Made by a program: the position numbers and the translations under genes. This document shows, one piece after another, positions 395-27,559 of a stretch of 33,447 nucleotides of DNA. Each line of letters opens with the position of its first letter. The first letter of the stretch is position 1. The stretch lies in assembly GCA_016191165.1 (NCBI GenBank), contig JACPPF010000103.1, positions 1 through 33,447 of the forward strand. Direction: 5' to 3'. The notes beneath the pieces are model-generated. The model worked only from the letters and a program-made list of their open reading frames with translations, was not told where the DNA came from and made no database searches. The stretch is from Planctomycetota bacterium. GTDB taxonomy: Bacteria > Planctomycetota > Planctomycetia > Gemmatales > Gemmataceae.

Positions 395-664
395 GCGTGC
401 CGGTATCTGGCGACCGTTCTCGCTGCTCTCATCCAGGGCGAAGATCGTGATGTGGTTCTCTCCCCGGAGTGGAAACCGGTGCAGCATCTCAACGCCATCA
501 AGCCGCTGAATCCCTGGATTCAGGACATCGCCAAGGGGAGTTTCCGCAAGAAGCAATCGCCCGTCATCAAAGGATCGGGATGGGTGGTCAAGAGCTTGGA
601 GGCCGCGCTGTGGGCGTTCCATGACGCCAGCACATTCGAGGAAGCCGTCTTGCGAGCGGTCAAC
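395..664 (+). pseudogene. ADP-ribosylglycohydrolase, C-terminal fragment
   Basis: The frame reads ACRYLATVLAAL, then LSPEW, then [20 protein letters not shown] and [10 protein letters not shown]. This is the typical C-terminal part of ADP-ribosylglycohydrolase (DraG/ARH-like) enzymes, which remove ADP-ribose from proteins. In intact family members the next residues are a metal-binding LGDDADTTGA-like motif. Here the match stops at AVN (about 664) and the sequence changes to an unrelated gene on the other strand. The N-terminal two thirds and the catalytic acidic cluster are missing, so it cannot be active. The left break lies near 385-398, just after an in-frame stop at 383-385. Confidence 0.75.
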
Positions 665-914
665 CACGGGCCAGCAGCGCCTCTTGAAATCGGCGGTACA
701 ACTCCTCGGTCAGTATCCAGCCCCGATAAATGATTTCACCGCCATCCCCAGGTGGAAGGCGATTGAAGGCGAGGTCGATTTCCCCAGCAGACAACGCCTC
801 TTCATCGAAGAGGAAGCAAGAAAAGCCCAGCGATTTCGCAGCGTCGAATTCGGGTTCAAAGATTGGCTCCGGCAGCTTGCGCATCATTGGGTTCTGAGGA
901 AAGAGGAGATTCAT
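660..914 (-). pseudogene. ATP-grasp family protein, N-terminal fragment
   Basis: On the minus strand an ATG at 914 opens a frame beginning [17 protein letters not shown], continuing through [12 protein letters not shown] and [15 protein letters not shown] recognise this as the N-terminus of a bacterial ATP-grasp-type protein that often starts with a 'FP.NPM..+.P...F..E..AA...G' pattern; the assignment is from memory of the family. It has a weak AGGGA motif upstream. It stops at 660-662 in codons that belong to the ADP-ribosylglycohydrolase fragment, so only about 84 residues remain and the ATP-binding part is lost. It follows the EF-Tu end on the same strand by 53 bp, so 664-1050 may be one transplanted piece. 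Confidence 0.55.
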
Positions 915-967
915 TTTAGATCCCTGGAAGATAAACGTGGGGGCAGATCGCTCCACCCCCACAAGGT

Positions 968-1050
968 TCAATCAACAACTTCGGTGATGACGCCAGAGCC
1001 CACCGTCTTGCCGCCTTCCCGAATGGCGAAGTGGCTCCCGATGTCGAGGG
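968..1050 (-). pseudogene. tuf: Elongation factor Tu, last ~27 codons only
   Basis: Reading the minus strand from about 1050 down to the TGA at 968-970 gives [20 protein letters not shown] followed by [21 protein letters not shown] is the near-universal C-terminus of translation factor EF-Tu. Upstream of it, at about 1050, the sequence switches to the phosphoketolase 3' end on the opposite strand. So it is a piece of a tuf gene cut off from its body, not a functional gene. Finding a housekeeping gene end here supports either transposed debris or an assembly join. Confidence 0.8.
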
Positions 1051-1331
1051 CCAACCACGACAACATCCACGTGCGCGGTTACAAGGAAGAGGGCACAATT
1101 ACTACGGCCTTCGATATGACGGTGCTGAACGACCTGGACCGGTTCCATCTCGTGATGGACACCATCGACCGCCTGCCGCAGACCGGCGCCAAGGGCATCT
1201 ATTTGAAGCAGCAGCTCAAGAACAAACTGATCGAGCACAAGCAATACATCGACTTCCACGGCGAAGATATGCCGGAGATTCGCAACTGGAAATGGAGCCG
1301 GGCGAATAGCGTTCGGAAGGATCAGCGATGA
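1050..1331 (+). pseudogene. xfp: Phosphoketolase (Xfp), C-terminal fragment
   Basis: The plus-strand frame from about 1050 reads [20 protein letters not shown], then [20 protein letters not shown] and a charged tail ending at TGA 1329-1331. [17 protein letters not shown] and [10 protein letters not shown] are hallmark C-terminal motifs of xylulose-5-phosphate/fructose-6-phosphate phosphoketolase, a thiamine-diphosphate enzyme that makes acetyl phosphate. Intact enzymes are about 800 residues; only about 90 remain. The stop overlaps the acetate kinase start (ATGA), the classic xfp-ackA arrangement in which acetyl phosphate is turned to acetate and ATP. Broken at 1050 by joining to the EF-Tu end. 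Confidence 0.87.
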
Positions 1332-1566
1332 ATTTCAATCAGACCGGCCAGCGGATTCTCACGATCAACACTGGCTCTTCCAGCCTCAAGATCGCCCTCT
1401 ATGAGGGGGGCCAGGAAGAGACGCGGATGCTCTCGGGCCACGTCGAGCGGATCGGCGTTCCTGGCGGGCGTTTACGTCTCACGGACGCCAACGGCGCGAG
1501 CTTGATCGATCAGGGAGGTGACCTTCGGGACCACGGTGCCGCGTTGGATGCGGTGTTGGTCTGGTT
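1328..1566 (+). pseudogene. ackA: Acetate kinase, N-terminal fragment
   Basis: The start ATG overlaps the xfp stop. The protein begins [28 protein letters not shown] is the N-terminal signature of acetate kinase (AckA), which transfers phosphate from acetyl phosphate to ADP. Similarity continues through a DHGAALDAVLVWL segment, about residue 79, and then breaks near 1566, where the sequence becomes the reverse strand of a copper ATPase. The frame closes at TGA 1574-1576. The catalytic middle of about 170 residues is absent. The C-terminal third lies at 2031-2458 on the opposite strand. Confidence 0.85.
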
Positions 1567-1571
1567 GCCGG

Positions 1572-1977
1572 GCTGATCGCGCACGATCTGCGGGTGCATG
1601 GGGCAGGAGTATTCCACATTGGTGGCCGCCGGAGCACTGCCGACGGGTTCCAGGGTCATGCCGCACTTGGGGCACGTCCCTGGATGATCCTGCCGGACTT
1701 CCGGGTGCATCGGGCAGGTATAGATTGTCCCGCCTGTCGATGCTGACATGCCGCTTGTTTCCGTTGCATGCGGCTTGAGGTATCGCTTCGGGTCCGCTTG
1801 AAACTTCTGCCGACAAGAGTTCGAGCAGAAGTAATAAGTTCGTCCATCGTGTACGACCGAGCCTGCCGCGTGTGACGGATCCACCGACATCGCGCAGACC
1901 GGATCAGTAACAGCGAGCAACTCCGCTGGTGAAGTGGAATGTTGCTCAGGGGGAATTTTGTCAACGGTTTGCATCAT
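1572..1977 (-). pseudogene. copA: Copper-transporting P-type ATPase, N-terminal metal-binding fragment
   Basis: Start chosen at ATG 1977 (or the adjacent ATG 1974) because a strong GAGGAGAAGG lies directly upstream. Domains in order: a YHS/TRASH metal-binding domain (DPVCAMSVDP, then YYFCSNSCRQKF), a heavy-metal-binding domain (YTCPMHPEVRQDHPGTCPKC) and the beginning of a second (YSCPMHPQIVRDQPGN). These are the usual N-terminal domains of long copper/silver P1B ATPases. The second domain stops abruptly after PGN at about 1572, and the reading then enters the antisense of ackA. The membrane and catalytic parts are at 2455-3987 on the other strand. Confidence 0.82.
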
Positions 1978-2030
1978 CCTTCTCCTCTTTTTGGTCTTCA
2001 CTCGGCCACCAATGGGTTACGTGAACAGGA

Positions 2031-6310: not shown

Positions 6311-6667
6311 ATGCACGAACATGCCGAGCACTTTACGAAGTGCGCCAAAGCCTGCGCTGACTGTCAGCTCCAGTGCGACTCTTGTTTCACGCATTGCGTG
6401 GCGCTGCTGGCCGACGGCAAGAAGGAACATGCCAAGACGGCGCAGCTCTGCGCCGACTGTGCCGAGTGTTGCAAAAGCTGTGCAACCCTGTGTGCCAGGG
6501 AGAGCCCCCTCGCTCGCCTCATGCTGGAGTGTTGCGCAAAGTGCTGCGACGAATGCGCCGCGGCGTGCGAGAAAATCACCGGCGACAAGAACATGGCGGC
6601 CTGCGCGAAGTCGTGCCGCGATTGCGCCAAGGAGTGCCGGGCAATGATCAAGCACCTGTCGCACTAA
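6311..6667 (+). CDS. Cysteine-rich four-helix-bundle copper-storage-type protein (Csp/DUF326)
   Basis: A 118-residue protein with 22 cysteines arranged as CxxxC, CxxC and CC patterns along predicted helices (KCAKACADCQLQCDSC, CADCAECCKSC, ECCAKCCDECAAAC, CAKSCRDCAKEC). This matches the DUF326/Csp family, in which Cys side chains pointing into a four-helix bundle hold many Cu(I) ions. There is no signal peptide, so it should be cytosolic, like Csp3. The start follows a GAGG motif. The family is well described; the 22-Cys count is higher than the 18 I recall for Csp3. It fits a copper-handling context, with the copper ATPase remnant upstream and a multicopper oxidase downstream. Confidence 0.85.
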   Translation: MHEHAEHFTKCAKACADCQLQCDSCFTHCVALLADGKKEHAKTAQLCADCAECCKSCATLCARESPLARLMLECCAKCCDECAAACEKITGDKNMAACAKSCRDCAKECRAMIKHLSH

Positions 6668-6961: not shown

Positions 6962-7063
6962 GCCCGCCGAATACCAGACCCTCTCGTTCGAGCAATGAAT
7001 CAGGCAAATGACAGTCAGTCAATGTTCTTAACCAGAGTCGAACTCCAATTACGAAGGAATACC

Positions 7064-8005
7064 ATGGAAAAGTTCAAAACCGTGGCTACGTCACGCCTGG
7101 CCGTGTTTATCGGGGGCGCAGTGCTGGCCCTCCTTGTGACTTTGCCCTTTGTGAGTAGCGCCCAGGACAAAACGGACAAGGCAAAAGATCCCGACCCGCA
7201 TGCCAAGCACAAGGACACGCAGCCTTCTGGCGACAAGAACTTGGCGAGCCAGATCGCGGACTTGCAAGCCAAGGTCGCGAGGCTGGAAGCCGCGTTGGCG
7301 AAAAGCTCGGGGAGCATGAGTGGCGGCATGGGAAAAATGAAAGACGACAAGATGATTAGCGGCATGGGTGACAAGAAGAAGGGCATGGCTGGCATGGGCA
7401 TGGAAGACGACAAGATGATGGGCGGCATGGGAGCCAAGAAGAAGGGCATGGGCATGGGCATGGGCATGATGGAAATGAAAGGCATGGGCATGGGCATGAT
7501 GGACATGGACATGATGGAAATGATGGGCATGATGGGTATGGCGCCCAAGACTGCCGGCGGCATGACGGGCATGAAAAGCATGGGCAAGATGCAGATGAAA
7601 GCCGCTCTGCCGGGCTTCCCCGGTGCTTCGCATATCTACCACATCGGGGCCACTGACTTCTTCCTCAACCATCCCGAACACATCGACCTGACGGCCAAGC
7701 AAAAGGGCGCCTTGGGCCGCCTGAAGGAGAAGGCCATCCTTGCCAAGACCTCCGCTCAGCGCAAGATCGATGAGGCCGAGCAGGAGCTTTGGATCTTGAC
7801 CGCAGCCGACGAACCGGACGCGACGAAGATCGAGGCCAAGATCCAGGAAACCGAGAAGTTGCGCGGCGCCCAGCGGATGGCGCTCATTCGAGCCGTCGGC
7901 GACGCCGCCAAAATGCTGACCGACGATCAGCGCGCGGCGCTGTTGGGGACCGGGGCGGATAAGACTGCCAAGCCCGACCCGAAAGCCGGCCACAAGATGC
8001 CTTGA
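7064..8005 (+). CDS. Periplasmic Met-rich LTxxQ-type (CpxP/Spy-like) protein
   Basis: 313 residues. The start at 7064 is preferred over an upstream in-frame ATG because GAAGGA precedes it and a signal peptide follows (LAVFIGGAVLALLVTLPFVS). A charged His/Lys segment and a short coiled coil (about residues 58-80) come next, then a stretch from about 85 to 180 with roughly 34 methionines in MGM/KMM-type repeats, able to bind Cu(I). The C-terminal part is helical with IDLTAKQKGALGRLKEK and LTDDQRAALL, the LTxxQ motifs of CpxP/Spy and CnrX/ZraP-like metal-responsive periplasmic proteins. I infer periplasmic copper binding or sensing. First of the series of metal and redox genes. Confidence 0.75.
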   Translation: MEKFKTVATSRLAVFIGGAVLALLVTLPFVSSAQDKTDKAKDPDPHAKHKDTQPSGDKNLASQIADLQAKVARLEAALAKSSGSMSGGMGKMKDDKMISGMGDKKKGMAGMGMEDDKMMGGMGAKKKGMGMGMGMMEMKGMGMGMMDMDMMEMMGMMGMAPKTAGGMTGMKSMGKMQMKAALPGFPGASHIYHIGATDFFLNHPEHIDLTAKQKGALGRLKEKAILAKTSAQRKIDEAEQELWILTAADEPDATKIEAKIQETEKLRGAQRMALIRAVGDAAKMLTDDQRAALLGTGADKTAKPDPKAGHKMP

Positions 8006-8072: not shown

Positions 8073-8372
8073 ATGGCAAAAACGCTGAAACGGCCGGCGG
8101 CAACAAACTTTGCGTGCCTTGTCCCGGCAGCTCGCGAGGTTTTCCTCGCGGGAACGTTCAATGGTTGGGATCCAAAGGCGACGCGAATGATCAAGGACGC
8201 CGAAGGTAACTGGCGCGTGGCCGTGGCCCTCCCTCCGGGTCGTCATGAATTCAAGTTCGTGGTCGATGGCGTCTGGTGTTGCGAGCCCGGCTGTGAAGGT
8301 CCGTTCCATGGATGTCCCAAGTGCGTACCCAATTCGTTGGGCACCATGAACCGATTAATCGAGGTGAAGTGA
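8073..8372 (+). CDS. Free-standing AMPK-type glycogen-binding (CBM48) domain protein
   Basis: 99 residues forming one immunoglobulin-like early-set domain: EVFLAGTFNGWDPKATRMIK, then NWRVAVALPPGRHEFKFVVD. This is the AMPK1_CBM/CBM48 pattern that binds alpha-glucans such as glycogen. The end is unusual, with six cysteines around WCCEPGCEGPFHGCPKC. No signal peptide is present, so it should be cytosolic. It sits inside the metal/redox cluster rather than next to a glycogen enzyme, but the GH15 gene 6 kb downstream gives a possible carbohydrate link. RBS-like AAAGAAAGG precedes the ATG. Confidence 0.8.
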   Translation: MAKTLKRPAATNFACLVPAAREVFLAGTFNGWDPKATRMIKDAEGNWRVAVALPPGRHEFKFVVDGVWCCEPGCEGPFHGCPKCVPNSLGTMNRLIEVK

Positions 8373-8374
8373 AC

Positions 8375-9319
8375 ATGAGACATCTGTCTTCCTCAAAAAC
8401 TCCGAGCCGGCTTTTCGGTCTCGGCATGTTCGCAATCCTGATCGGACTGGCCGTTGCGCTTCCGGGTCACGGCCAGGTGTCGCCGGAGGAGCACAAGAAG
8501 CATCACCCCGGGGACAAGGAGCAGGACAAAGCCGGAATGCCGGGAATGGCCTCCGGCGGCAAGGAGCCGGCGAAGGGGATGGGCGGCGGCATGGATATGG
8601 GCAAGATGATGGAGGGGATGGGGAAGCCTCCGCCCAAGGAGTTGTATCCATCGCTCATGAGCCTGCCGGAGCTAACGTCCGAACAGCGAGATCAGGTCCG
8701 GAGGCAGGCGGATGAGCGAATGCGCTCGGGCGTGGTACTTCTGGGCAAGGGACTGGACCGCCTCGGCGAGGCGGCGGAGAAAGAGGATTACGAGGCCATG
8801 CAGGAAGCCACTGCCCAGGTGCGCGAGGCCCTCGCGCGTTTCGAGAGCGGCCTGGCCGCCCGTCGCGCCTTGGCCGACGGCAAGCCGCCGCGCCAAGTAG
8901 CCCTGCAATGGTTCAAGGGCGAAATGAACCTTCAACCGCCACAGGGTGTAGAACGTCGAGGCGGTAACTCCGGGACATCGCTATTTCACCTTTTCACGAT
9001 GGCTCTTCTTATCGCGTTCGCGCTGGCGATGGTCGCGATGTACTTCTTCAAGATGCGCCGGGCAGCGGCCCTCTTTGAGCGTATCGAGTCCGACTCGGGC
9101 TCGCCTCCCCCCGGTTCCGCACCGCCGCTTGCCGGGTCGCCCGCGCCAGGCGCTAAAGTCGCACCACCTGCAAAAGATGCCAAAGCAGTTCCGCCTGCGG
9201 TGGACCCCAAAGTCGCGGCTACGGCAAACGGCAAACAGGCAGCACCACCGGCTGATGCGAAAGCTGCACCGCCCGCGGCAGAGGCCAAAGCCGATCCCCC
9301 TGAGGTGACGAAAACATGA
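8375..9319 (+). CDS. Membrane-anchored Met-rich periplasmic protein
   Basis: 314 residues; start chosen at 8375, 2 bp after the previous stop, with GAGGTGAAG upstream. A signal sequence (FGLGMFAILIGLAVALPGHG) is followed by a His/Lys/Met-rich part (residues about 35-90, with GGGMDMGKMMEGMGK), then a helical domain starting LPELTSEQRDQVRRQADERM, an LTxxQ motif like CpxP-type proteins. A transmembrane helix (LFTMALLIAFALAMVAMYFF, about residues 208-228) is followed by a Pro/Ala/Lys tail that would lie in the cytoplasm. Its stop overlaps the start of the flavin/iron-sulfur reductase (ATGA), which suggests translational coupling and a joint role. Confidence 0.75.
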   Translation: MRHLSSSKTPSRLFGLGMFAILIGLAVALPGHGQVSPEEHKKHHPGDKEQDKAGMPGMASGGKEPAKGMGGGMDMGKMMEGMGKPPPKELYPSLMSLPELTSEQRDQVRRQADERMRSGVVLLGKGLDRLGEAAEKEDYEAMQEATAQVREALARFESGLAARRALADGKPPRQVALQWFKGEMNLQPPQGVERRGGNSGTSLFHLFTMALLIAFALAMVAMYFFKMRRAAALFERIESDSGSPPPGSAPPLAGSPAPGAKVAPPAKDAKAVPPAVDPKVAATANGKQAAPPADAKAAPPAAEAKADPPEVTKT

Positions 9320-10458
9320 GCCAGCTGTCATTCCAAAAAGCCGCTACGCCTGTGGCAGACACTCAAGCCGGACCGGCAGCCGTTTCGGAGCCGACCTCCG
9401 CGTCGCCTATGACTGCGAATTGGCGAGGGTACCTGCGTGTCGGAAACATCGTCGCGGAAACCCCAGGCGTGAAAACGTTCCGCCTGCTTCCGTCGTCGGG
9501 CGACCGCTTCCTCCCTTTCACCTTTGTGCCAGGCCAATTCCTCAACGTCGCGTTCTGGATTGGCGGCGCGCGGATGAACCGCTCGTACTCCATCTCGTCC
9601 TCCCCGACGCAACGCGAATACGTAGAGGTGACCGTGAAGCGTGAGCCGCGGGGCGCGGTTTCTCGTCACATCGTTGACCTGCTCAAGGTGGGCGACCTGA
9701 TCGAAGCCGCAGGCCCGGTCGGGAAGTTCACGTTCGACGGGACGGAAGCGGACAGCGTCGTTCTCATCTCGGCCGGCGTCGGGATCACGCCCATGGTGAG
9801 CGTCACCCGGTATCTCACCGAGCGGGCGTGGGCCGGAGACATTTTCTTCATCTTTACGTGCCGCACTCCAGCCGACTTCATCCTGGGGAACGAGGTTGCC
9901 GCGCTTCAGCGTGCCAATCCGAAGTTGCACGTCGCGGTCACGATGACCCGATCGGAAGGGACGGACTGGAAGGGGCCGCGCGGACGCATCACCAAGGAAC
10001 TCCTCACGCAGACGGTCCCCGATCTGGCGTCGCGGCGAATCCACCTGTGTGGGCCGCTGCCGATGATGGAGACGACTAAAGCCATCCTCGCCGAACTCGG
10101 CGTTCCTCCGGATAACCTGAAGACCGAACAATTCGGCGCGGTCAAGCCCGCCCCGGCCGCCGCCGCGACCTCATTGAAACCGACTGCCACGGCCACGGGC
10201 CCGCTGGTCACGTTTTCAACGAACAACAAGTCGGCCAAGATCCACGTCGATCAGACCGTTCTCGAACTCTCCGAGGAGCTTTCCATCGGAATCGCATTCT
10301 CTTGTCGCATCGGCACCTGCGGCGTGTGCAAGGTGAAGATGACCTCCGGCGAGGTCGAGATGGAGGTGCAGGATGCACTCGATGACGACGACAAAGCCAA
10401 CGGCATCATCCTCGCCTGCCAGGCGAAGCCGAAGAGCGACATCGCGGTGGAGGCATAG
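9316..10458 (+). CDS. NAD(P)H flavin reductase with C-terminal 2Fe-2S ferredoxin domain
   Basis: 380 residues. A ferredoxin-reductase-type FAD domain (about 35-145) contains RSYSISSSP, and the NAD(P)-binding domain (about 150-275) contains SAGVGITPMVS and LCGPLPMMETT. The C-terminal plant-type ferredoxin domain (about 295-380) has FSCRIGTCGVCK and a distal LACQ, supplying the four cluster cysteines. This matches the Hcr/benzoate-reductase/phenol-reductase family, which passes two electrons from NAD(P)H through flavin to one-electron carriers. There is no signal peptide, so it is cytosolic. It is coupled upstream by an ATGA overlap and downstream by a 2-bp gap to a cytochrome b, its likely electron acceptor. 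Confidence 0.88.
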   Translation: MSQLSFQKAATPVADTQAGPAAVSEPTSASPMTANWRGYLRVGNIVAETPGVKTFRLLPSSGDRFLPFTFVPGQFLNVAFWIGGARMNRSYSISSSPTQREYVEVTVKREPRGAVSRHIVDLLKVGDLIEAAGPVGKFTFDGTEADSVVLISAGVGITPMVSVTRYLTERAWAGDIFFIFTCRTPADFILGNEVAALQRANPKLHVAVTMTRSEGTDWKGPRGRITKELLTQTVPDLASRRIHLCGPLPMMETTKAILAELGVPPDNLKTEQFGAVKPAPAAAATSLKPTATATGPLVTFSTNNKSAKIHVDQTVLELSEELSIGIAFSCRIGTCGVCKVKMTSGEVEMEVQDALDDDDKANGIILACQAKPKSDIAVEA

Positions 10459-10460
10459 CC

Positions 10461-11204
10461 ATGAAAGAACGTGAGCGCATCATCGTCGCCGGCGTCCTCT
10501 GCGTCTTGCTGTTCGCCTGGCTCGGCTTCCTCGTCCACCGTTCGCCGCGCTTTGCGGGCAGCGGAGTTGGGGCGGTGTTCGGGATCGCGGGGGCCGTGCT
10601 CATGCTGGTCCCGCTCGCGTATCCGACCGTCAAGCGCATTCCCTTCCTCAATGCTCGGATCACGCCGCACGTTTCGTTGCAGTCATTGATGACGCTACAC
10701 GTCTACGCGGGCATCCTTGGCCCGCTGCTGGGTATCATTCATACCGGCCACAAGTACGACAGCTGGTTGGGAATCACGCTGACGGCAGTAATGCTGCTCG
10801 TCGTCGTGAGCGGGTTCATCGGTCGCTACCTGCTCAGCTACGTCAATCAGGAGATTAAGGACAAGTTGCTTCTCTTGCAGACTGCCAGGGGGGATCTGGA
10901 TAGCGCGTGGGGGGCGCTCAAGAACGCGCCCCCGGGGATGAATACCCTTCCGAAGTCGCCCCTTCTGGCGGCAGGCTTGGCGTCCTTGGGGATCGACCTT
11001 CAAGTCGGCGGGCCGGCTGGTGAGGTCACCAGGCTTGCCGAATCCGTGGCGGATCTGGAGTACGCGATCCGTACCCACGAGCTTTTCAAGCGCTGGTGCA
11101 GCCGATGGCTGACACTGCACCTCGTTCTTTCCGTGCTCCTTTACGTGCTGCTCGCGCTGCACATCTGGGCCGGGATTCATTTCGGACTGAGGTGGTTCTC
11201 ATGA
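10461..11204 (+). CDS. Di-heme membrane cytochrome b-type protein
   Basis: 247 residues with about five transmembrane helices (7-25, 36-55, 73-95, 101-124, 214-240). The helix at 73-95 has His80 and His94, and the last helix has His220 and His234. Two His pairs, each 14 residues apart on two helices, are the classic pattern for two b-type hemes stacked across the membrane. Other His residues (70, 97, 240) are near the ends. A soluble stretch of about 90 residues lies between helices 4 and 5. I do not recognise a named family, but a membrane electron carrier is well supported. It lies 2 bp after the reductase and overlaps the multiheme cytochrome (ATGA). Confidence 0.75.
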   Translation: MKERERIIVAGVLCVLLFAWLGFLVHRSPRFAGSGVGAVFGIAGAVLMLVPLAYPTVKRIPFLNARITPHVSLQSLMTLHVYAGILGPLLGIIHTGHKYDSWLGITLTAVMLLVVVSGFIGRYLLSYVNQEIKDKLLLLQTARGDLDSAWGALKNAPPGMNTLPKSPLLAAGLASLGIDLQVGGPAGEVTRLAESVADLEYAIRTHELFKRWCSRWLTLHLVLSVLLYVLLALHIWAGIHFGLRWFS

Positions 11205-12019
11205 AACTCTGGCACATCGCAGCCGCGGCGGCGATCATCGTGACGCTGTTTGGCGCGTACTACTTCTTCGGGAATCATGGCGGTAGCGAGGGCTCGGGAG
11301 TGTTGAGCAAAACAGCCTGGCAGCGCATGGCCCTACCCGGGGAGCTGTCCAAGGCGCATGCGTTTCTGGAACACAACTGCGCGGCCTGTCACACGGCCAG
11401 CAAGGGTGTCGAAGCCAGCAACTGCATCGCCTGCCACGCCAACAACGAGTCGTTGTTGCAACGCCAGCCGACCGCGTTCCATGCCGACGTGGGTAGCTGC
11501 GTCGAGTGCCACGCTGAGCATCGAGGAACCGATCAGCGCCCGACCAAGATGAACCATCTGGCGCTAGCGGAGATCGGCTTCCGCCAACTGAAGGCCGACC
11601 ATGCGCCAAACGGTGAAAACGAACGGGTGCGGAAAGACCTCCTCGCCTGGATTGGCCAACACCAACCCACGGGCCACGGGTCGGCAGGCCATTCGAGCCT
11701 CACCCCGCAGGAGGCGGTGTTGAATTGCGCGTCCTGCCATTCCACCAAGGATCGGCATTTCAAGCTCTTCGGCCAAGACTGCGCCCAGTGCCACACGACG
11801 ACGAAGTGGACGATCCCCGAGTTTCGGCACCCGTCGTCGCGATCGATGGACTGCGCTCAGTGCCATCAGGGACCGCCGAGCCATTACATGATGCATTTTG
11901 AAATGATGTCAGCCAAGTTCGCTGGAAAGCCGCACGCCAAAGTCAACCAGTGTTACGAGTGCCACCAGACGACGGCATGGAACGACATCAAAGGCATTGG
12001 CTTTTTCAAACACCACTAG
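11201..12019 (+). CDS. Membrane-anchored heptaheme c-type cytochrome
   Basis: 272 residues; the start ATG overlaps the previous stop, which decides against longer in-frame options. An N-terminal helix (about 5-23) serves as signal anchor and the rest is periplasmic. Seven CxxCH heme-binding motifs are visible at about residues 60, 75, 100, 176, 194, 218 and 251 (CAACH, CIACH, CVECH, CASCH, CAQCH twice, CYECH), with many extra His residues as possible distal ligands. The spacing resembles the cytochrome c3/c7-type multiheme families. It probably receives electrons from the cytochrome b encoded before it and passes them to a periplasmic or surface acceptor. Confidence 0.9.
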   Translation: MKLWHIAAAAAIIVTLFGAYYFFGNHGGSEGSGVLSKTAWQRMALPGELSKAHAFLEHNCAACHTASKGVEASNCIACHANNESLLQRQPTAFHADVGSCVECHAEHRGTDQRPTKMNHLALAEIGFRQLKADHAPNGENERVRKDLLAWIGQHQPTGHGSAGHSSLTPQEAVLNCASCHSTKDRHFKLFGQDCAQCHTTTKWTIPEFRHPSSRSMDCAQCHQGPPSHYMMHFEMMSAKFAGKPHAKVNQCYECHQTTAWNDIKGIGFFKHH

Positions 12020-12775: not shown

Positions 12776-14098
12776 ATGAAGTACGCAGTCGCGCGCATCG
12801 CACTCTATATCTTCCTGCTCCTTGCGCCCCTGTCCATGGCGGCCGTATTCGGCCCGGGCGGCCACGGGTTTCTCGGCGAATTGGGCAGGTCGTTTGCACT
12901 GTTAGCCTTCACGATCGTAACCATGCAGTTTGTGTTGAGCGCACGGCTGAGCTGGATCGAGCGGCCGTTCGGGCTGGACATGCTGTTCCGCTTTCACAAG
13001 GCCATGGCCGTGTTCGCGACTGTGCTGCTGCTTCTCCACCCCGTGCTGTTGGCGGCGGGCGGGGCAGGCTGGGCTTTGCTGATCGGCTTCGATGTTCCCT
13101 GGCATATCTGGCTGGGCCGGTTGGTCCTGCTCGTTCTGCTCACCCTCGTGGGCATCAGTTGGTTTCGGCTGGCTCTGTGCCTGGAGTACGAGCGCTGGCG
13201 GCGCTGGCACAACGCGTTGGCAGTGCTCCTACTCGCCCTGGGCTTCGTGCATAGCTGGAACGCCGGGCGCGACCCGACCGCCGGTCCGCTACGGTTCCTC
13301 TGGCCGGGGTTGGTGGGTGCGGCGGCCCTCGCCTACTTATATCACCGCGTCGTGCGGCCCTTTTGGCTTTGGCGACACCCTTACCGAGTGGTCGAGGTCA
13401 TTCAGGAGACGCCGGAGGTGTGGACCATCAAGCTCCGCCCGCCGGAGGGCCGACGATTGGGCGACTATCTGCCAGGTCAGTTTTGCTTCCTGACTCTGAA
13501 GCGGGGGCGGGGTCTGCCGACCGAGGAACACCACTGGACGATCTCGTCCAGCCCGACCGAGCAGGGGTTCATCACCTTCACGATCAAGGAGTCCGGCGAC
13601 TTTACCGCCACGATCGGCCAGACGCGGCCCGGCGACACCGCCGCCGTGCTCGGCCCTTATGGGCGCTTCTCGTACGTGTTGCACCCCGAGGAGGGTGACC
13701 TGATCTTTATTGCGGGCGGCATCGGCATTACCCCGCTGATGAGCATGCTGCGGCACATGCGCGACACGCGGGCCGACCGGTGTGTGCTGCTGATTTATGC
13801 AAATACGACCCAAAGCGATATCGCGTTCCGCGACGAGTTGGCGGCGATTGAGGCGGGCGCGAGCCCCCGCCTGCAAGTCATCCACATACTGAGCCGACCC
13901 GAGGCCGGCTGGGCCGGCGAGACCGGCCGCCTCGATCGCGCGAAGGTCGAGCGACTGTGCGGCAAAGATGTGGCGGACAAGGCGTACTATGTCTGCGGCC
14001 CGCCGGCGATGATGACGGCGGTGCTCGCGATCCTTCAGGAGCTTGGTGCAGCCCAGTCCGCCGTACAGGTCGAACGGTTCTCGCTTTTCGAAAATTAA
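12776..14098 (+). CDS. Ferric-reductase-like transmembrane flavocytochrome b
   Basis: 440 residues. The N-terminal 200 residues are a six-helix ferric-reductase transmembrane domain with His74 and His88 on one helix (FRFHKAMAVFATVLLLLHP) and His145 and His158 on another (RRWHNALAVLLLALGFVHSW), the bis-heme pattern of FRE/NOX enzymes. The C-terminal half is an oxidoreductase: FAD-binding HHWTISSSP, GPYGRFSY, and NAD(P)-binding AGGIGITPLMSML and YVCGPPAMM. It should move electrons from cytosolic NAD(P)H through FAD and two b hemes to the outside, reducing Fe(III), Cu(II) or oxygen. Acceptor unknown. It starts 103 bp after the small secreted gene. Confidence 0.85.
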   Translation: MKYAVARIALYIFLLLAPLSMAAVFGPGGHGFLGELGRSFALLAFTIVTMQFVLSARLSWIERPFGLDMLFRFHKAMAVFATVLLLLHPVLLAAGGAGWALLIGFDVPWHIWLGRLVLLVLLTLVGISWFRLALCLEYERWRRWHNALAVLLLALGFVHSWNAGRDPTAGPLRFLWPGLVGAAALAYLYHRVVRPFWLWRHPYRVVEVIQETPEVWTIKLRPPEGRRLGDYLPGQFCFLTLKRGRGLPTEEHHWTISSSPTEQGFITFTIKESGDFTATIGQTRPGDTAAVLGPYGRFSYVLHPEEGDLIFIAGGIGITPLMSMLRHMRDTRADRCVLLIYANTTQSDIAFRDELAAIEAGASPRLQVIHILSRPEAGWAGETGRLDRAKVERLCGKDVADKAYYVCGPPAMMTAVLAILQELGAAQSAVQVERFSLFEN

Positions 14099-16794: not shown

Positions 16795-18159
16795 ATGACT
16801 CAGCCCTTATACGACGACATGCTCGACCGACTTCAGCGCGACGCGTTCTCTTACTTCGTGAAAGAGGTGAACCCCGCGAATGGATTGGTCAAGGATTGCA
16901 CGCGCCCGGGTTTCCCCGCCAGCATCGCCGCCGTCGGTCTGGCGCTGGCGGCTTATCCCGTAGGCGTCGAGCGGGGGTTGCTTACGCGTGCCGAGGCGGT
17001 CGCGCGGGCGTTGACGACCTTGCGATTCTTCTGGACCAGCCACCAGGGGCCCGAGCCGGACGCCACCGGCTTCAAGGGCTTCTACTATCACTTCCTTGAC
17101 ATGGACACCGGACGGCGCGCTTGGGACTGTGAACTGTCCACCATTGACACGACGCTCCTGCTCGCAGGAGCGCTGACCGCCGGCTTGTACTTCGATGGGG
17201 ATGTGGCCGAGGAGCGCGAAGTGCGTGAACTGGCGGACGCGCTCTACCGCCGCGCGGACTGGCAGTGGGCCCAGAACGGGGAGGCCACGCTCACGCACGG
17301 ATGGAAGCCGGAGAGCGGCTTCCTGCCCTACCGCTGGCGGGGCTACGACGAGGCCACGATCCTTTATCTCCTGGGCCTCGGCTCGCCGACGCACCCACTG
17401 CCACCGCAAAGTCACGCGGCCTACACCTCAACGTATAGTTGGAAGAACATCTACGGCTACGAGTTCCTGTACGCGGGACCGCTCTTCATCCACCAATACT
17501 CGCACGTCTGGATCGACTTTCGCGGGATCCAGGATGAGTACATGCGTGCCAGGGGCATCGACTACTTCGAGAACAGCCGCCGCGCGATCCACGTGCAGCA
17601 GCAATACGCCATCCGCAACCCGCTTGAGTTCCGGCGCACCTGCGGGTGCCACCAATGTGAATGCTGCTGGGGTATCACCGCAAGCGACGGTCCGGGCCAC
17701 GCAACGCTAATCATTGACGGTATCGAACGCCACTTTTTTGATTACCTGGCCCGCGGCGCGCCCTACGGCCCCGACGATGGCACCATCGCTCCATGGGCCT
17801 CGGCCGCGTCCTTGCCTTTTGCCCCTGAGATTGTTCTTCCGACGATTGAACACATGATCCACCTCGGCGCCGGGCCAACGTCATGCCCCTACGGCCTGGT
17901 AGCCAGCTTCAATCCGACGTTTCCCGGTCCGACGCCTCTTGGCTGGGTATCTCCCTGGAATTACGGGCTCAACCAAGGGCCACTCGTGTTGATGGTGGAG
18001 AATTATCGGTCCGGCCTGATCTGGAGTTTGATGCGCCGCTGCCCTTACCTGGTCGCGGGACTGGGCCGGGCAGGTTTTTCCGGCGGCTGGTTGGGGAGTG
18101 GTCGTGCCAAGTCAACTGCTGGACCGCGGCTAACTCGAAAGGAACCTTTTCATGTCTGA
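16795..18159 (+). CDS. GH144-type glucanase (glucoamylase-like, COG5368)
   Basis: 454 residues, starting 56 bp after GH15. Motifs such as GFYYHFLDMDTGRRAW, CELSTIDTTLLLAG, GWKPESGFLPYRWRGYDEA and YAGPLFIHQYSHVWIDFRG are those of the glucoamylase-like family that includes GH144 endo-beta-1,2-glucanases. The protein has no evident signal peptide. Known relatives cleave beta-1,2-glucans and are often neighbours of GH94 phosphorylases, and a GH94-type protein lies at 27560-33286. The C-terminus (RSGLIWSLMRRCPYLVAGLG) is repeated in a remnant at 20369-20500. The last codons overlap the gnd start by 8 bp, so the two are likely coupled. Confidence 0.85.
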   Translation: MTQPLYDDMLDRLQRDAFSYFVKEVNPANGLVKDCTRPGFPASIAAVGLALAAYPVGVERGLLTRAEAVARALTTLRFFWTSHQGPEPDATGFKGFYYHFLDMDTGRRAWDCELSTIDTTLLLAGALTAGLYFDGDVAEEREVRELADALYRRADWQWAQNGEATLTHGWKPESGFLPYRWRGYDEATILYLLGLGSPTHPLPPQSHAAYTSTYSWKNIYGYEFLYAGPLFIHQYSHVWIDFRGIQDEYMRARGIDYFENSRRAIHVQQQYAIRNPLEFRRTCGCHQCECCWGITASDGPGHATLIIDGIERHFFDYLARGAPYGPDDGTIAPWASAASLPFAPEIVLPTIEHMIHLGAGPTSCPYGLVASFNPTFPGPTPLGWVSPWNYGLNQGPLVLMVENYRSGLIWSLMRRCPYLVAGLGRAGFSGGWLGSGRAKSTAGPRLTRKEPFHV

Positions 18160-19621
18160 ACAAATCGGCATCATTGGTCTGGCTGTGATGGGGGAGAACT
18201 TGGTCCTGAATTTGACGGACCATGGAGCCTCAGTGGGCGTGTACAACCGCACCGCCGAGCGGACCCGAAAGTTTATCGAGGGGCCAGCCGCCGGGCGGCC
18301 CGTTCGTGCGGCGTCGTCGGTGGCGGAACTCGTCGGGCGGCTTGAACGGCCGCGGCGGGTGCTCCTGATGGTCAAGGCTGGCCCGCCAGTCGATGCGGTT
18401 CTGGATGAACTCGTGCCTCACCTGGAGCCGGGAGACATCATCATCGACGGCGGCAACTCCCACTTCCGCGACACGGAACGCCGGGCCGAACGGCTCGCAC
18501 AGAAGGGTTTGCTCTACGTGGGCATGGGCGTCAGCGGGGGCGAAGAGGGAGCCCGTCACGGCCCGAGCCTCATGCCGGGTGGCCCTCGCCCGGCCTACGA
18601 ACAGCTCGAACCGCTCCTGAAAAAGATCGCGGCTCAGACCGACAGCGGGCCGTGCGTAACTTTTGTCGGAACCGGCGGCGCGGGCCACTTCGTCAAGATT
18701 GTGCATAACGGCATCGAGTACGGCGACATGCAACTCATCGCCGAGGCGTATGATTTGTTACGCCGTGGGGCGGGGCTCTCTTCGGCGCAGCTCGCCGAGG
18801 TCTTCGACACCTGGAACCAGGGCGAACTCCGGTCCTACCTCATCGAGACCACCGCCCGCGTCGTCGCGTTTCCCGACGACCAGGGCACCGGCGACATGCT
18901 GATCGACCGGATCGACGATCGCGCCGGCCAGAAGGGGACGGGCAAGTGGACTACTCAGGCCGCCTTGGACCTGGGCGTGCCGGTCCCGACGATCACCGCG
19001 GCTGTGGATGCTCGGCTCCTCTCTGCCCTGAAAATCGAAAGGCAGAAGGCGGCCGAGGTCTATCCGAGCCGGGCCGGGACCAATTCAAACGGCGCCGCTG
19101 ACCGGGGTATCTCGGTGGATCCCGCCGGCCTTTCCGTTGCGGCGAAAGAGGTCATCGACGAGGTGCGGCAAGGGCTGTACGTGGCCAAGGTCTGCTCCTA
19201 CGCCCAGGGCTTCGCGCTGCTGGCGGCCGGCTCCCGCGAGTACGGCTATGGCCTGGATCTGAGCGAGATCGCGCGGATTTGGAAGGGAGGCTGCATCATC
19301 CGGGCGGCTCTCTTGGACCCAATCCACGCCGCTTTCCGGGGTGACCCTGGGCTGTCCAACTTGCTGCTCGATACGGGCTTCGCCCGCGAAATCGCCGGCC
19401 GCCTCGGCGCTTGGCGGCGAGTAGTCGGGCGCGCACAGCAGTGGGGGATCCCGGTGCCGGCGTTCTCGGCCTCGCTCGCGTACTTCGACAGCTACCGTAG
19501 CGCTCGCCTGCCGGCCAACCTCGTGCAGGCCCAACGGGACTACTTCGGCGCTCACACCTACGAACGGATCGACCGTCCGGGAATCTTCCACACTGACTGG
19601 ACGAAGACGGTGAGGAAGTAG
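18152..19621 (+). CDS. gnd: 6-phosphogluconate dehydrogenase, decarboxylating
   Basis: 489 residues, the usual length. It begins with the nucleotide-binding IGIIGLAVMGENLVLNL, followed by NRTAERTRKF (cofactor contact), DGGNSHFRDTERRAE, GVSGGEEGARHGPSLMPGG and the substrate-binding GTGGAGHFVKIVHNGIEYGD with catalytic Lys. AGQKGTGKWT in the helical domain completes the signature. It converts 6-phosphogluconate to ribulose 5-phosphate, CO2 and NAD(P)H, providing both pentose phosphates for phosphoketolase and reductant for the neighbouring NAD(P)H reductases. Start behind GAAAGGAACC, overlapping the GH144 gene. Confidence 0.95.
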   Translation: MSEQIGIIGLAVMGENLVLNLTDHGASVGVYNRTAERTRKFIEGPAAGRPVRAASSVAELVGRLERPRRVLLMVKAGPPVDAVLDELVPHLEPGDIIIDGGNSHFRDTERRAERLAQKGLLYVGMGVSGGEEGARHGPSLMPGGPRPAYEQLEPLLKKIAAQTDSGPCVTFVGTGGAGHFVKIVHNGIEYGDMQLIAEAYDLLRRGAGLSSAQLAEVFDTWNQGELRSYLIETTARVVAFPDDQGTGDMLIDRIDDRAGQKGTGKWTTQAALDLGVPVPTITAAVDARLLSALKIERQKAAEVYPSRAGTNSNGAADRGISVDPAGLSVAAKEVIDEVRQGLYVAKVCSYAQGFALLAAGSREYGYGLDLSEIARIWKGGCIIRAALLDPIHAAFRGDPGLSNLLLDTGFAREIAGRLGAWRRVVGRAQQWGIPVPAFSASLAYFDSYRSARLPANLVQAQRDYFGAHTYERIDRPGIFHTDWTKTVRK

Positions 19622-23339: not shown

Positions 23340-24962
23340 ATGCATCCTGAAACAAGTCGCACCAGGTTCTTTCTCGGCATCGTCCTGGGGGGAGTCCTGG
23401 CCACGGCCGGATTTTCGCTCCTCGGCAGCGGCCAGCCTCACAGCGAGGGCCAGGCAGTCAACAAAAAGGAAGAGGCCCAGCCCAAGCACGACCAACACGC
23501 GGCGGCCAACGTCGATGTGGGCAGCGCCAGGGACCGGGGCAAGCTCATGCCGGGTTTCCGCAAGTCCGGACTGGCGCCGGTCCCGGTCGAGACTCCTGAC
23601 TGCCCCAAGCTCTTCTGGGAGATGAAGAACGGAGTCAAGGAGTTCCACTTGACCGCCGAGCACCTCAAGCGCGAGATGCTGCCTGACGTTTGGATCGACG
23701 TGTGGGGTTATAACGGCAGCATGCCCGGCCCGATGATCGAAGCCGTCGAGGGGGACAAGGTTCGCATCATTGTCCACAACAAGCTGCCGGAGCCGACCAT
23801 CATGCACTGGCACGGCATCGACGTCCCCAACCTTATGGACGGCGTGGAGGGCCTGATCCAGGATCCGATCCCGCCGGGCGGCACCTACACCTACGAGTTC
23901 ACCCTCAAACAGAACGGCACGTTCTTCTACCATACGCACGTGGCCATGCAGCAAGGCATGGGGATGGTGGGCCTGTTCATCATCCACCCCAAGGTGGCTC
24001 ACTACCCGCCGGTGGACCGCGACATCGCCCTCATCATCCAGGAATGGGCCATCCTGCCTGGTTCATCGGTCCATAACACCATGTCGATGGAGTTCAATCT
24101 CTTCACGCTTAACGGCCAGGCAGCCCCTTACATCACGCCCCTGGTCATCAAGCAGGGCGAGCGGGTGCGCATTCGCCTGGTCAATTTCAGCGCCATCGAC
24201 CATCACCCGATGCACTTGCACGGGATGCAGTTTTGGATCACCGGGACCGAAGGAGGCCGGATTCCGGACACTGCCTGGTATCCAAGCAACAACGTCCTGG
24301 TGGGGGTTGCGCAGGCCCGGGATGTCGAGTTCATCGCCGACAACCCCGGCGACTGGGTGTTCCACTGCCATATGTTCCACCACATGATGAACTTCATGTC
24401 CTCTCAGGTGGGTATGCCGGGCGGCCATTCGATGAAAGGCATGCCGACGGGAGGCAATATGGGCACTGGCATGGGCATGATTACGCGAGGTCCGGCGTTA
24501 TCCTCCGAATTCGGCCCTTACCTGGGACGGGGCACCGGAGAGCAAACGGGTTCTGAACGGACGGTGGGTAATGGCCCGAAAATGGATCCCAAGATGAAAA
24601 TGGACGGCAAGGGTGATGACAAGATGAAGATGGATCCCAAGATGAAAATGGACAACGGGAAAGATCCCCACGCCGGACACGGCACGGCAGCCAAAAAAGT
24701 GCCGGGCTTCCCGCAGAGCATGGCCGGGATGTCCATGTATTCCGAGAAAGAGATCGCGAAGCTCAACAGTAAATGGCAAACCCGGGGCATGCGCAAGGAA
24801 TGGCACGAGGGAGTCGAAGGGCTGATGACCGTGGTTCGCGTACTGCCGCCGGAGTTGTATGAACGCGTGGTTTCCGGGAAGGGAGAAGTGCGGCCCGGGG
24901 AAAGCGTGCCGGGGTACAAGGGTGGGAAGGGGCCGCATGATTTGCACAAAATGAAAAAATAG
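23340..24962 (+). CDS. Two-domain multicopper oxidase with Met/Lys-rich tail
   Basis: 540 residues, starting behind TGGAGG. An N-terminal helix or signal (FFLGIVLGGVLATAGFSLLG) is followed by a His-rich linker. The first cupredoxin domain has MHWHGID (about 155) and FFYHTHV (about 195); the second has HPMHLHG (about 289) and HCHMFHHMM (about 341). HCHxxxHxxxxM supplies the type 1 copper only in domain 2, as in small two-domain laccases. These four His motifs build the trinuclear centre. A long tail (about 360-540) carries MKGM, KMDPKMKMD and similar repeats, likely for extra copper. Probable role: oxidation of Cu(I) or phenols in the periplasm. The preceding 270 bp holds no gene I can see. 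Confidence 0.9.
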   Translation: MHPETSRTRFFLGIVLGGVLATAGFSLLGSGQPHSEGQAVNKKEEAQPKHDQHAAANVDVGSARDRGKLMPGFRKSGLAPVPVETPDCPKLFWEMKNGVKEFHLTAEHLKREMLPDVWIDVWGYNGSMPGPMIEAVEGDKVRIIVHNKLPEPTIMHWHGIDVPNLMDGVEGLIQDPIPPGGTYTYEFTLKQNGTFFYHTHVAMQQGMGMVGLFIIHPKVAHYPPVDRDIALIIQEWAILPGSSVHNTMSMEFNLFTLNGQAAPYITPLVIKQGERVRIRLVNFSAIDHHPMHLHGMQFWITGTEGGRIPDTAWYPSNNVLVGVAQARDVEFIADNPGDWVFHCHMFHHMMNFMSSQVGMPGGHSMKGMPTGGNMGTGMGMITRGPALSSEFGPYLGRGTGEQTGSERTVGNGPKMDPKMKMDGKGDDKMKMDPKMKMDNGKDPHAGHGTAAKKVPGFPQSMAGMSMYSEKEIAKLNSKWQTRGMRKEWHEGVEGLMTVVRVLPPELYERVVSGKGEVRPGESVPGYKGGKGPHDLHKMKK

Positions 24963-25745: not shown

Positions 25746-27098
25746 TCAGCGCGGGCGAGGCGTGGCTTCGATGTGTCCCCCGGGCGTAGGTGCGGGCGGT
25801 TGGTCAAGGCCGTTCGATAAGAGCATGCCGTTGATCTCCACTTCCGCGCGCCGGAGATCGATCAGAGCGTTGATGTATTCCTCGGTGTACCCAAAATAGT
25901 TGCGTTCGGCGACAAGCACCTGCGGCCAAGTGGCCCGACGCTTCTTGAAATATTCTTGATAGAGTTCGTAAGCCTGCCGCGCCTTCGGCAACGTGTTTTT
26001 CTGGTAGTCATCCACGGATTGATAAGCATTCTGATACTGCGTGAAGGTGTCGGCCAACCGGCGCCTGAGCACGAGTTCCGTGCGCGTAACCTCGGCGCGG
26101 GCACGGGCCAGTTCAGCCTCGGCTTGCCGTTTCGTCCCCTGGTTCCGGTCGAAAATCGGCAGACGGATGCCGACCTGGACGTTACCGACGGTGCTTTTTT
26201 CTCCAGGAATGTAGTTATATCCCAAGCCCGCCCGCACGGTGATGTTGGGGATCGCCTCGACCTGTTCGCGCTTGAGGGAAATTTGGTCCCGCACCACTTC
26301 GGCCTGGACGAATTGCATCTCGGGACTCTCCTGCAAGAGTTTCGCCAGGGATTTCTCCCACTGTAAAGGGGGGCCTACCAACTCCAGCTTCCCGGCAAGC
26401 GGCGTGGGCGCCATTTCCGGCGTGCCAATCATGGTGACAAGATGCTCCCAAGCCCGCTTGTAGCGATTTTCAGCCGTTTTCATGGCCACGCGCGATCGCT
26501 GGGCTTCGATCTGGGCTTGGAGCAAATCAGGCTGATTGGCCTGGCCGAGGTTAACCAGTTCCTCCGTGGTCTTAATGGCGTTGTCGGCGTTCTTCAGCAA
26601 AGTGCGATGGTTTTCGATGGAACTCTGGACCGCGAGGATCTCGTAGTAGGCGATGCGGATGCCGTTGACGACGCGGAGTTGCTGGGCCATTGCTTGAATC
26701 TCGGCCTGGTACGCCTCTTGCTTATATTTGGCCCGGCTGAGGCGTAGTTTGCCTGCCGTGACGATCTCCTGCTGGATAAATCCGCCTTGAAACTCGCCCG
26801 CGCTCCTCTGCGAGCCGATTTGCTCGCCCGCGTAGCCGATGGTTGGGTTGGGGTAGAGGCCGGCTTGAAGGGCCTTGCCCCGGGACACGTCAACTCGGGC
26901 CGCAGCCTGGACCAACGTCGGGTTATGCTGGAGAGCAATCTGCTCCAGGTCCGCAAGGCTTAACGGGCCTGCCGCTTGCGTCAGCATCTTGGGCATCGGG
27001 GCAGTTGTCTGAGCAGTCAGATAGGCCGGAGCGCAAACGGCAAGGCCGACAAGAAGACAGGCACGCCAAACGGCGATGCGGGTGTGACAAAAATGCAT
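25746..27098 (-). CDS. TolC/CusC-type outer-membrane efflux channel
   Basis: 450 residues; start taken at ATG 27098 because GAGAGGG lies seven bases upstream, in preference to a TTG at 27125. Signal peptide (about 8-30, LLVGLAVCAPAYLTAQ) is followed by the outer-membrane-efflux pattern: LSLADLEQIALQHNPTLVQA, LYPNPTIGY, GQANQPDLLQAQIEAQRSR, then a second repeat with RLPIFDRNQGTKRQAEAELA and long helices. TolC-like proteins form trimeric channels for RND or metal efflux pumps (CusC/CzcC type). Neither membrane-fusion protein nor RND pump is present, so the partner must lie outside the window. Given the copper genes around it, copper efflux is likely but unproven. Confidence 0.88.
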   Translation of the reverse strand: MHFCHTRIAVWRACLLVGLAVCAPAYLTAQTTAPMPKMLTQAAGPLSLADLEQIALQHNPTLVQAAARVDVSRGKALQAGLYPNPTIGYAGEQIGSQRSAGEFQGGFIQQEIVTAGKLRLSRAKYKQEAYQAEIQAMAQQLRVVNGIRIAYYEILAVQSSIENHRTLLKNADNAIKTTEELVNLGQANQPDLLQAQIEAQRSRVAMKTAENRYKRAWEHLVTMIGTPEMAPTPLAGKLELVGPPLQWEKSLAKLLQESPEMQFVQAEVVRDQISLKREQVEAIPNITVRAGLGYNYIPGEKSTVGNVQVGIRLPIFDRNQGTKRQAEAELARARAEVTRTELVLRRRLADTFTQYQNAYQSVDDYQKNTLPKARQAYELYQEYFKKRRATWPQVLVAERNYFGYTEEYINALIDLRRAEVEINGMLLSNGLDQPPAPTPGGHIEATPRPR

Positions 27099-27559
27099 CG
27101 AGTATCCCTCTCGTTGTTTATTCAATGTGCGTGCCCTTGCAGCACGTCCAGTCTGTCGAAGTTATCGGCTCGACTGGCGGTCCCTCGTTTACCGAAACTA
27201 ACGACCTGCCCATGAAAACCGTTTAAGGCAGCGAAGGTCTAGCGGATATGCGGAAAGTTCGGGGCGGTCCAATCGCTATTTGGCATCGAGCCCTGTTTTG
27301 GCTTTCCTTTCGCTTGCCAGACCTCATCAATATCGCCCTGGAACGGAACCCGGAACTGAAAGCCGCCGGATTTGAGATTTAGAATTGGTTCCCAATAGGA
27401 TTTGTAGTGGACCCAATTGTTTGGAGCAAGCGTCCCTTCGCCCTTCGCACCTTTGTCTTTGCGAAGGAGGCGACTGGGAGGGAAAAAAAAGAGGGCAGCA
27501 TTGGCCCTTCACCTTCTTCCGAGGCATTTCTCCTGGTTGTAGGGAATGGAAATGCAAGC
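27099..27559. other. Intergenic region with a TolC-like remnant
   Basis: About 460 bp without an intact gene. On the plus strand, 27311-27382 reads RLPDLINIALERNPELKAAG then FEI-stop; LxxLxxxALxxNPxLxAA is the first-helix pattern of TolC-type proteins, so this may be a remnant of another efflux gene. A minus-strand ATG at about 27524, behind CAGGAGA, opens a 65-codon frame starting MPRKKVKGQCC that I cannot recognise. The tract G3A8 near 27480-27490 could be slippery. The rest shows nothing clear. Confidence 0.35.

Follow-up and report, generated by a model that had tools for sequence, protein, structure and literature searches.

Background

Among the described systems that resemble the gene cluster reported here, the MsrQ-Fre(-MsrP) system of E. 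coli combines a separate cytosolic flavin reductase with a heme-b membrane protein and a periplasmic acceptor, and is linked to copper stress (PMC5676040, PMC9302797). The NOX, FRE and STEAP enzymes and bacterial SpNOX conduct electrons from NAD(P)H via FAD and two stacked hemes b to the outside; two of their helices each bear a pair of His spaced by about 13 residues. In CbcL of Geobacter, a diheme b membrane part feeds a periplasmic multiheme cytochrome c (PMC9129911). Eukaryotic cupric reductases are membrane heme proteins that draw their electrons from NADPH or ascorbate. Dedicated counterparts in bacteria, such as CcoG, which yields Cu(I) from Cu(II), are almost unknown (PMC7558416). The cluster in question occupies positions 8375-12019 of a 33,447-nucleotide stretch of DNA (contig JACPPF010000103.1, assembly GCA_016191165.1; the whole stretch is referred to as the window) from a planctomycete of the family Gemmataceae. 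It is read here, with a probability of about 0.5, as a transmembrane electron conduit for the homeostasis of copper (possibly another metal), leading from NAD(P)H to a heptaheme cytochrome c.

The conduit differs from each of these systems. In contrast to MsrQ-Fre(-MsrP), its reductase has a 2Fe-2S cluster, a transmembrane (TM) anchor and a His/Met-rich outer domain, its acceptor is a heptaheme c instead of a molybdoenzyme, and it has no PF01794 match above cut-off. Compared to the NOX/FRE/STEAP enzymes, of which SpNOX, csNOX5 and STEAP1 give weak structural matches, it is split over several chains, possesses the additional 2Fe-2S cluster, five predicted TM helices, a long cytosolic hairpin between TM4 and TM5 and a dedicated heptaheme c. 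CbcL unites its b part and nine hemes c in a single chain and is described as a quinone oxidoreductase (PMC9129911); the conduit has an NAD(P)H reductase and only seven hemes c, and its b and c proteins are encoded by separate genes in the loci examined. CcoG employs two 4Fe-4S clusters and no heme conduit (PMC7558416). By the features compared, the conduit is not a member of MsrPQ, CbcL or CcoG; it represents known parts in a new arrangement, a split, NOX/FRE/MsrQ-like enzyme with a heptaheme c of its own at the end. Its nearest working analogues would be MsrQ-Fre, which is copper-induced in E. coli, and the eukaryotic FRE/STEAP cupric reductases. A preceding inspection of the DNA without database searches (the sequence-only reading) had pointed to no named system with this set, and a description of the operon was likewise not found in the open-access full-text literature (subscription papers being outside this scope).

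Organization of the conduit genes

The operon comprises the following genes:

8073-8372, plus strand: AMPK1_CBM/CBM48 (glycogen-binding) single-domain protein of 99 aa (Pfam AMPK1_CBM, 7e-14)
8375-9319, plus strand: His/Met-rich periplasmic domain protein, the split N-half of the reductase (hydropathy; fusion in relatives)
9316-10458, plus strand: cytosolic NAD(P)H:FAD / plant-type 2Fe-2S reductase (Pfam FAD_binding_6, NAD_binding_1 and Fer2)
10461-11204, plus strand: predicted diheme cytochrome b with five TM helices (invariant His; hydropathy; structure model)
11201-12019, plus strand: periplasmic, membrane-anchored heptaheme cytochrome c (seven CXXCH; Cytochrom_CIII, 3.6e-9)

The last four open reading frames lie exactly where the sequence-only reading had placed them, with ATGA overlaps at the Met-rich gene/reductase and the b/c junctions and a 2-bp gap between the reductase and cytochrome b genes; the seven heme c motifs and the His80/94 and His220/234 pairs that it had listed are all present. 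Its four-gene unit proved too short, since the stop of the AMPK1_CBM gene is located 2 bp upstream of the Met-rich gene and the operon therefore exceeds four genes. The tightly spaced plus-strand genes begin further upstream still, with a true LTxxQ/Metal_resist gene (6995-8005).

Distribution and mobility

About 45 loci, spread over at least eight phyla and in many cases carried by conjugative plasmids, share the conduit gene order. With the b protein as query, bacterial and archaeal genomes yielded 30 loci (49-91% identity) from Planctomycetota, Verrucomicrobiota, Myxococcota, Acidobacteriota, Chloroflexota, Elusimicrobiota and Pseudomonadota, to which the plasmids add Bacteroidota. Practically every complete locus preserves the order Met domain, reductase, b, c, a conservation far beyond chance; the search for a conserved gene order that had been proposed as a check on the earlier reading thus turned out in its favour, with recurrence in 30 genome loci plus plasmids. 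The AMPK1_CBM gene is present at 13 of 30 loci (L017-L046).

Within the class of the window's host, 27 of 297 genomes carry the conduit, and none of the six congeners searched does. A copy from Spartobacteria is 83-84% identical to that of the window and groups with planctomycete copies. Because of this patchy distribution and of 52 plasmid records with the conduit, 26 of them typed conjugative, the data point to horizontal spread, the tree alone being no proof of each transfer.

Plasmid pBBta01 of Bradyrhizobium BTAi1 (L091) harbours two operon copies, one of which is devoid of the N-terminal part of the reductase and adjoins an IS3 transposase. Congeners and more distant relatives (L078-L084) possess a more remote cytochrome b (about 25-30% identity), whose partners are cytochromes c with 10 or 15 hemes together with different flavoprotein or regulator genes; the b/multiheme-c modules thus form a wider family.

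The reductase and its His/Met-rich domain

The Met-rich protein, earlier regarded as an independent partner, is joined to the reductase in a single open reading frame (about 520-740 aa) in 20 of the 31 genome loci and 12 of the 13 plasmid copies read. The fusion looks ancestral, because split versions are mainly limited to the window's own subclade, and the real unit is the set of reductase, diheme b and heptaheme c. Hydropathy of the Met-rich protein indicates a signal peptide, a periplasmic His/Met-rich domain with conserved EEHxxHHP and Met repeats, one TM helix (203-221), the residues KMRR and a Pro/Ala linker; by the positive-inside rule, KMRR is predicted to face the cytosol. Fusion and topology together argue for a reductase fixed at the membrane, held there by a chain that is predicted to display a likely metal-binding domain outside.

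The reductase matches FAD_binding_6, NAD_binding_1 and Fer2, all above cut-off, as is characteristic of the FNR type (Hcr, PaaE, BenC-like), and resembles benzoate dioxygenase reductase (1krh, 9.9e-27). Assignment of the Met-rich protein to LTxxQ proteins held only for the motif itself: LTSEQR is present in the domain encoded by 8375-9319, but this domain has no match to the LTXXQ or Metal_resist profiles, and homology to the true LTxxQ neighbours was rejected upon profile-profile comparison (hhalign, 8.5% probability). The true LTxxQ protein is encoded by the separate upstream gene (6995-8005), and its family adjoins the conduit in 30 of 44 loci.

Cytochrome b

Residues H26, H80, H94, H97, H220 and H234 of the b protein are invariant in 31 of 31 relatives. 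Hydropathy predicts five TM helices with the N-terminus inside, with H80/H94 within TM3 or at its end and H220/H234 likewise for TM5. A spacing of 13-14 residues between two His on each of two helices is a feature of the PF01794 superfamily, whose heme-binding fold has six TM helices. The predicted topology puts H80 and H220 towards the cytosol and H94 and H234 towards the periplasm, as would be expected if TM3 and TM5 shared two stacked hemes. The four His listed earlier are probably paired as heme ligands across helices, H80 with H220 and H94 with H234, and not within one helix. The long cytosolic helical hairpin between TM4 and TM5 could plausibly serve the reductase as a docking site.

The b protein of the window matched no family in Pfam or NCBIfam. 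Among its relatives, DUF4405, Ferric_reduct, prokaryotic b561 and DUF4079 are matched weakly, mostly across TM5; several of these families belong to the Pfam two-heme cytochrome clan. DUF4405 (PF14358) is matched by 13 of 29 b members at E up to 1 (best 6.4e-7), with the plasmid members below cut-off, and the curated cut-off of PF01794 (ferric reductase/NOX/YedZ) was not reached (best 0.012-0.015, bits below 28). The family profiles of both b and c yielded no match against PDB sequences.

In some marine planctomycetes, a cytochrome b with a C-terminal DUF547 domain (Pfam) is encoded in L044 (7992-9614), and L068 contains an open reading frame of similar length.

Cytochrome c

The cytochrome c carries seven CXXCH motifs (residues 60, 75, 100, 176, 194, 218 and 251), and this number of hemes is preserved in all 13 plasmid copies read and in 30 of the 31 genome loci. 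Because its nine invariant His residues outside CXXCH are enough for bis-His ligation of all seven hemes, the protein is suggested to serve as an electron wire without an open catalytic site and not as an enzyme.

The sole loss of a heme motif among the 31 genome loci occurs in L019 (8741-9559), where the seventh motif reads CYQCN. A short gene with a match to OEP (outer-membrane-efflux-protein) lies between cytochromes b and c in L065 (10864-11310) and L066, and a gene for a DUF1622 membrane protein is found directly 3' of cytochrome c in many plasmid copies (L086, L088, L096, L097 and others).

Copper and reductant context

The following genes of the window form the context of the conduit:

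1510-2001, minus strand: YHS plus heavy-metal-binding-domain protein (Pfam HMBD, 6.8e-19; YHS, 1.8e-13)
6311-6667, plus strand: Csp1-like four-helix, Cys-rich protein of copper-storage type (TIGR04401, 1.2e-8, below its cut-off)
6995-8005, plus strand: periplasmic Met-rich LTxxQ/Metal_resist protein, a true LTxxQ gene (Pfam Metal_resist, 3.1e-8)
18152-19621, plus strand: 6-phosphogluconate dehydrogenase of the pentose-phosphate pathway, reductant supply (Pfam 6PGD, 3.2e-121)
23340-24962, plus strand: Met-rich multicopper oxidase (Pfam Cu-oxidase_3, 5.6e-41), one of only two in the genome

The link to copper or other metals, formerly drawn from the Met-rich protein, is supported by these surroundings. 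At distances of up to 15 kb, a multicopper oxidase accompanies 13 of 20 conduit copies (0.17 expected from the same genomes) and glucose-6-phosphate dehydrogenase (G6PD) seven of 20 (0.14 expected), the latter often as a second genomic copy; both statistics treat the loci as independent, which they are not fully. The cluster of the Csp1-like protein is represented in 10 of 44 loci. On plasmids, the operon, there of three genes, often directly follows a heavy-metal MerR regulator, and its neighbours include a copper multicopper oxidase, CopB, Cu-ATPases, DUF411, DUF305, Csp-type proteins and Cus-like RND pumps; 11 of the 14 plasmid stretches read contain genes whose annotation explicitly names copper or a copper island. 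Genes of glycogen and pentose-phosphate metabolism are likewise recurrent (glucoamylase, GlgP, isoamylase, G6PD, 6-phosphogluconate dehydrogenase and phosphoketolase), consistent with a supply of reductant, a theme that the glycogen-binding gene at the head of the operon fits.

Proposed function and alternative explanations

In the proposed mechanism, NAD(P)H would reduce FAD and then the plant-type 2Fe-2S cluster of the reductase, held by one TM helix of a chain that would show the His/Met-rich domain outside (in the window by the separate N-half chain). Electrons would cross the membrane via two hemes b between TM3 and TM5, the inner one at H80/H220 and the outer one at H94/H234, and be passed to the membrane-anchored heptaheme c in the periplasm. 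From there they would most likely reach periplasmic copper, and the Cu(I) formed from Cu(II) could then be managed by Cu(I)-selective Met-rich chaperones, storage proteins and efflux pumps. NADPH would be provided by island-encoded enzymes of glycogen breakdown and the pentose-phosphate pathway. Electron flow from cytosol to periplasm is very probable, and the corresponding path in the sequence-only reading is supported by conservation, topology and context; a role in copper or metal handling is probable, and Cu(II) as direct acceptor is a tentative assignment. As part of mobile copper islands, the conduit is most likely a transmembrane metalloreductase. Somewhat more speculative is the specific version analogous to eukaryotic FRE/STEAP, in which the conduit would be a dedicated plasmid-borne transmembrane cupric reductase, i.e. 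a split heme-b metalloreductase with its own periplasmic copper-binding domain and the heptaheme wire at its end.

Several observations weigh against the copper conduit as outlined. Some copies have no copper genes nearby (L098 and several marine planctomycetes), and genes co-travelling on an island need not share a function. The copper islands also encode oxidases of Cu(I), whose activity would counteract that of a cupric reductase. The choice of NADPH over NADH is drawn solely from neighbouring genes, and some plasmid 6-phosphogluconate dehydrogenases are annotated as NAD-dependent. The AlphaFold2 model of the heptaheme c is unusable (predicted local distance difference test, pLDDT, 54). That of the b protein shows the expected helices with moderate confidence (pLDDT 77; predicted template modelling score, pTM, 0.63), too weak to prove heme pairing, and its Z scores of 8-9 against SpNOX, csNOX5, STEAP1 and cytochrome b561 lie within the noise level of helical proteins. 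A Foldseek search of this model against the PDB revealed nothing below E 0.19.

Among the conceivable acceptors, periplasmic copper ranks first, followed by the repair of Met sulfoxide. In an MsrPQ-Fre-like system, the conduit would keep the methionines of Met-rich copper proteins reduced during copper stress, with an acceptor other than MsrP. MsrPQ is copper-induced via CusSR and repairs methionines of CusF (PMC9302797), Fre-MsrQ represents a split NOX-like flavin/heme pair (PMC5676040), and the conduit is surrounded by a Met-rich LTxxQ protein, the Met-rich domain of the reductase and a Met-rich multicopper oxidase. This explanation is unlikely, however: the operon and the annotated neighbours showed neither a molybdopterin MsrP nor another Msr domain, and no Met-sulfoxide chemistry is known for a heptaheme c on its own.

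Reduction of ferric iron or extracellular metal, respiratory or assimilatory, comes next and is similarly improbable. It is suggested by the resemblance of b plus multiheme c to inner-membrane exits such as CbcL (PMC9129911) and by the automatic label 'iron reductase' on some plasmid copies. Yet the operon encodes an NAD(P)H reductase and does not rely on quinol, its neighbourhood showed no genes for porin-cytochromes or outer-membrane multiheme proteins and relates to copper, not to iron, and many hosts are aerobes.

Last in this ranking, and rather doubtful, is a supply of electrons to the neighbouring multicopper oxidase, by which NAD(P)H would be oxidised and periplasmic O2 reduced to water, either removing the O2 or peroxide that makes Cu(I) toxic or re-setting the oxidase. 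Such oxidases are among the commonest neighbours, and the occurrence of two unlike kinds (Met-rich and CopA/PcoA) suggests a functional need; but two conduit genomes (G245, G106) show no such oxidase at all, in others it is located elsewhere, and CopA/PcoA-type oxidases are not known to require donors of this kind. Quinol-fed domestic respiration was set aside, as every complete locus encodes its own NAD(P)H reductase.

Efflux, storage and the oxidation of Cu(I) dominate current descriptions of how bacteria handle copper. If the reading as a copper conduit is true, a mobile path from NAD(P)H to the periplasm, travelling with copper genes through at least eight phyla, would equip copper islands with an active means of reduction and would explain the glycogen and pentose-phosphate genes on these islands. 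Because it travels on plasmids with copper-resistance genes, the conduit may be a bacterial counterpart of the eukaryotic membrane metal reductases. The clean family traits (invariant ligands, seven hemes and fusion) allow proteins currently labelled 'hypothetical', 'iron reductase' or 'cytochrome c3 family' to be named.

Further genes of the window

About 0.75 kb downstream of the conduit, a separate one-chain protein with Ferric_reduct, FAD and NAD domains (NOX/FRE-like) is encoded on the plus strand (12776-14098); a relative 56% identical to its product is located near the conduit in L023. An open reading frame of 236 aa (621-1331, plus strand) contains only XFP_C, the C-terminal domain of phosphoketolase, and the gene may be broken or cut. 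The island is flanked by genes on the minus strand for an outer-membrane efflux (TolC-like) protein (25746-27125) and a GH94 plus glycoamylase-domain protein of 1908 aa (27560-33286).

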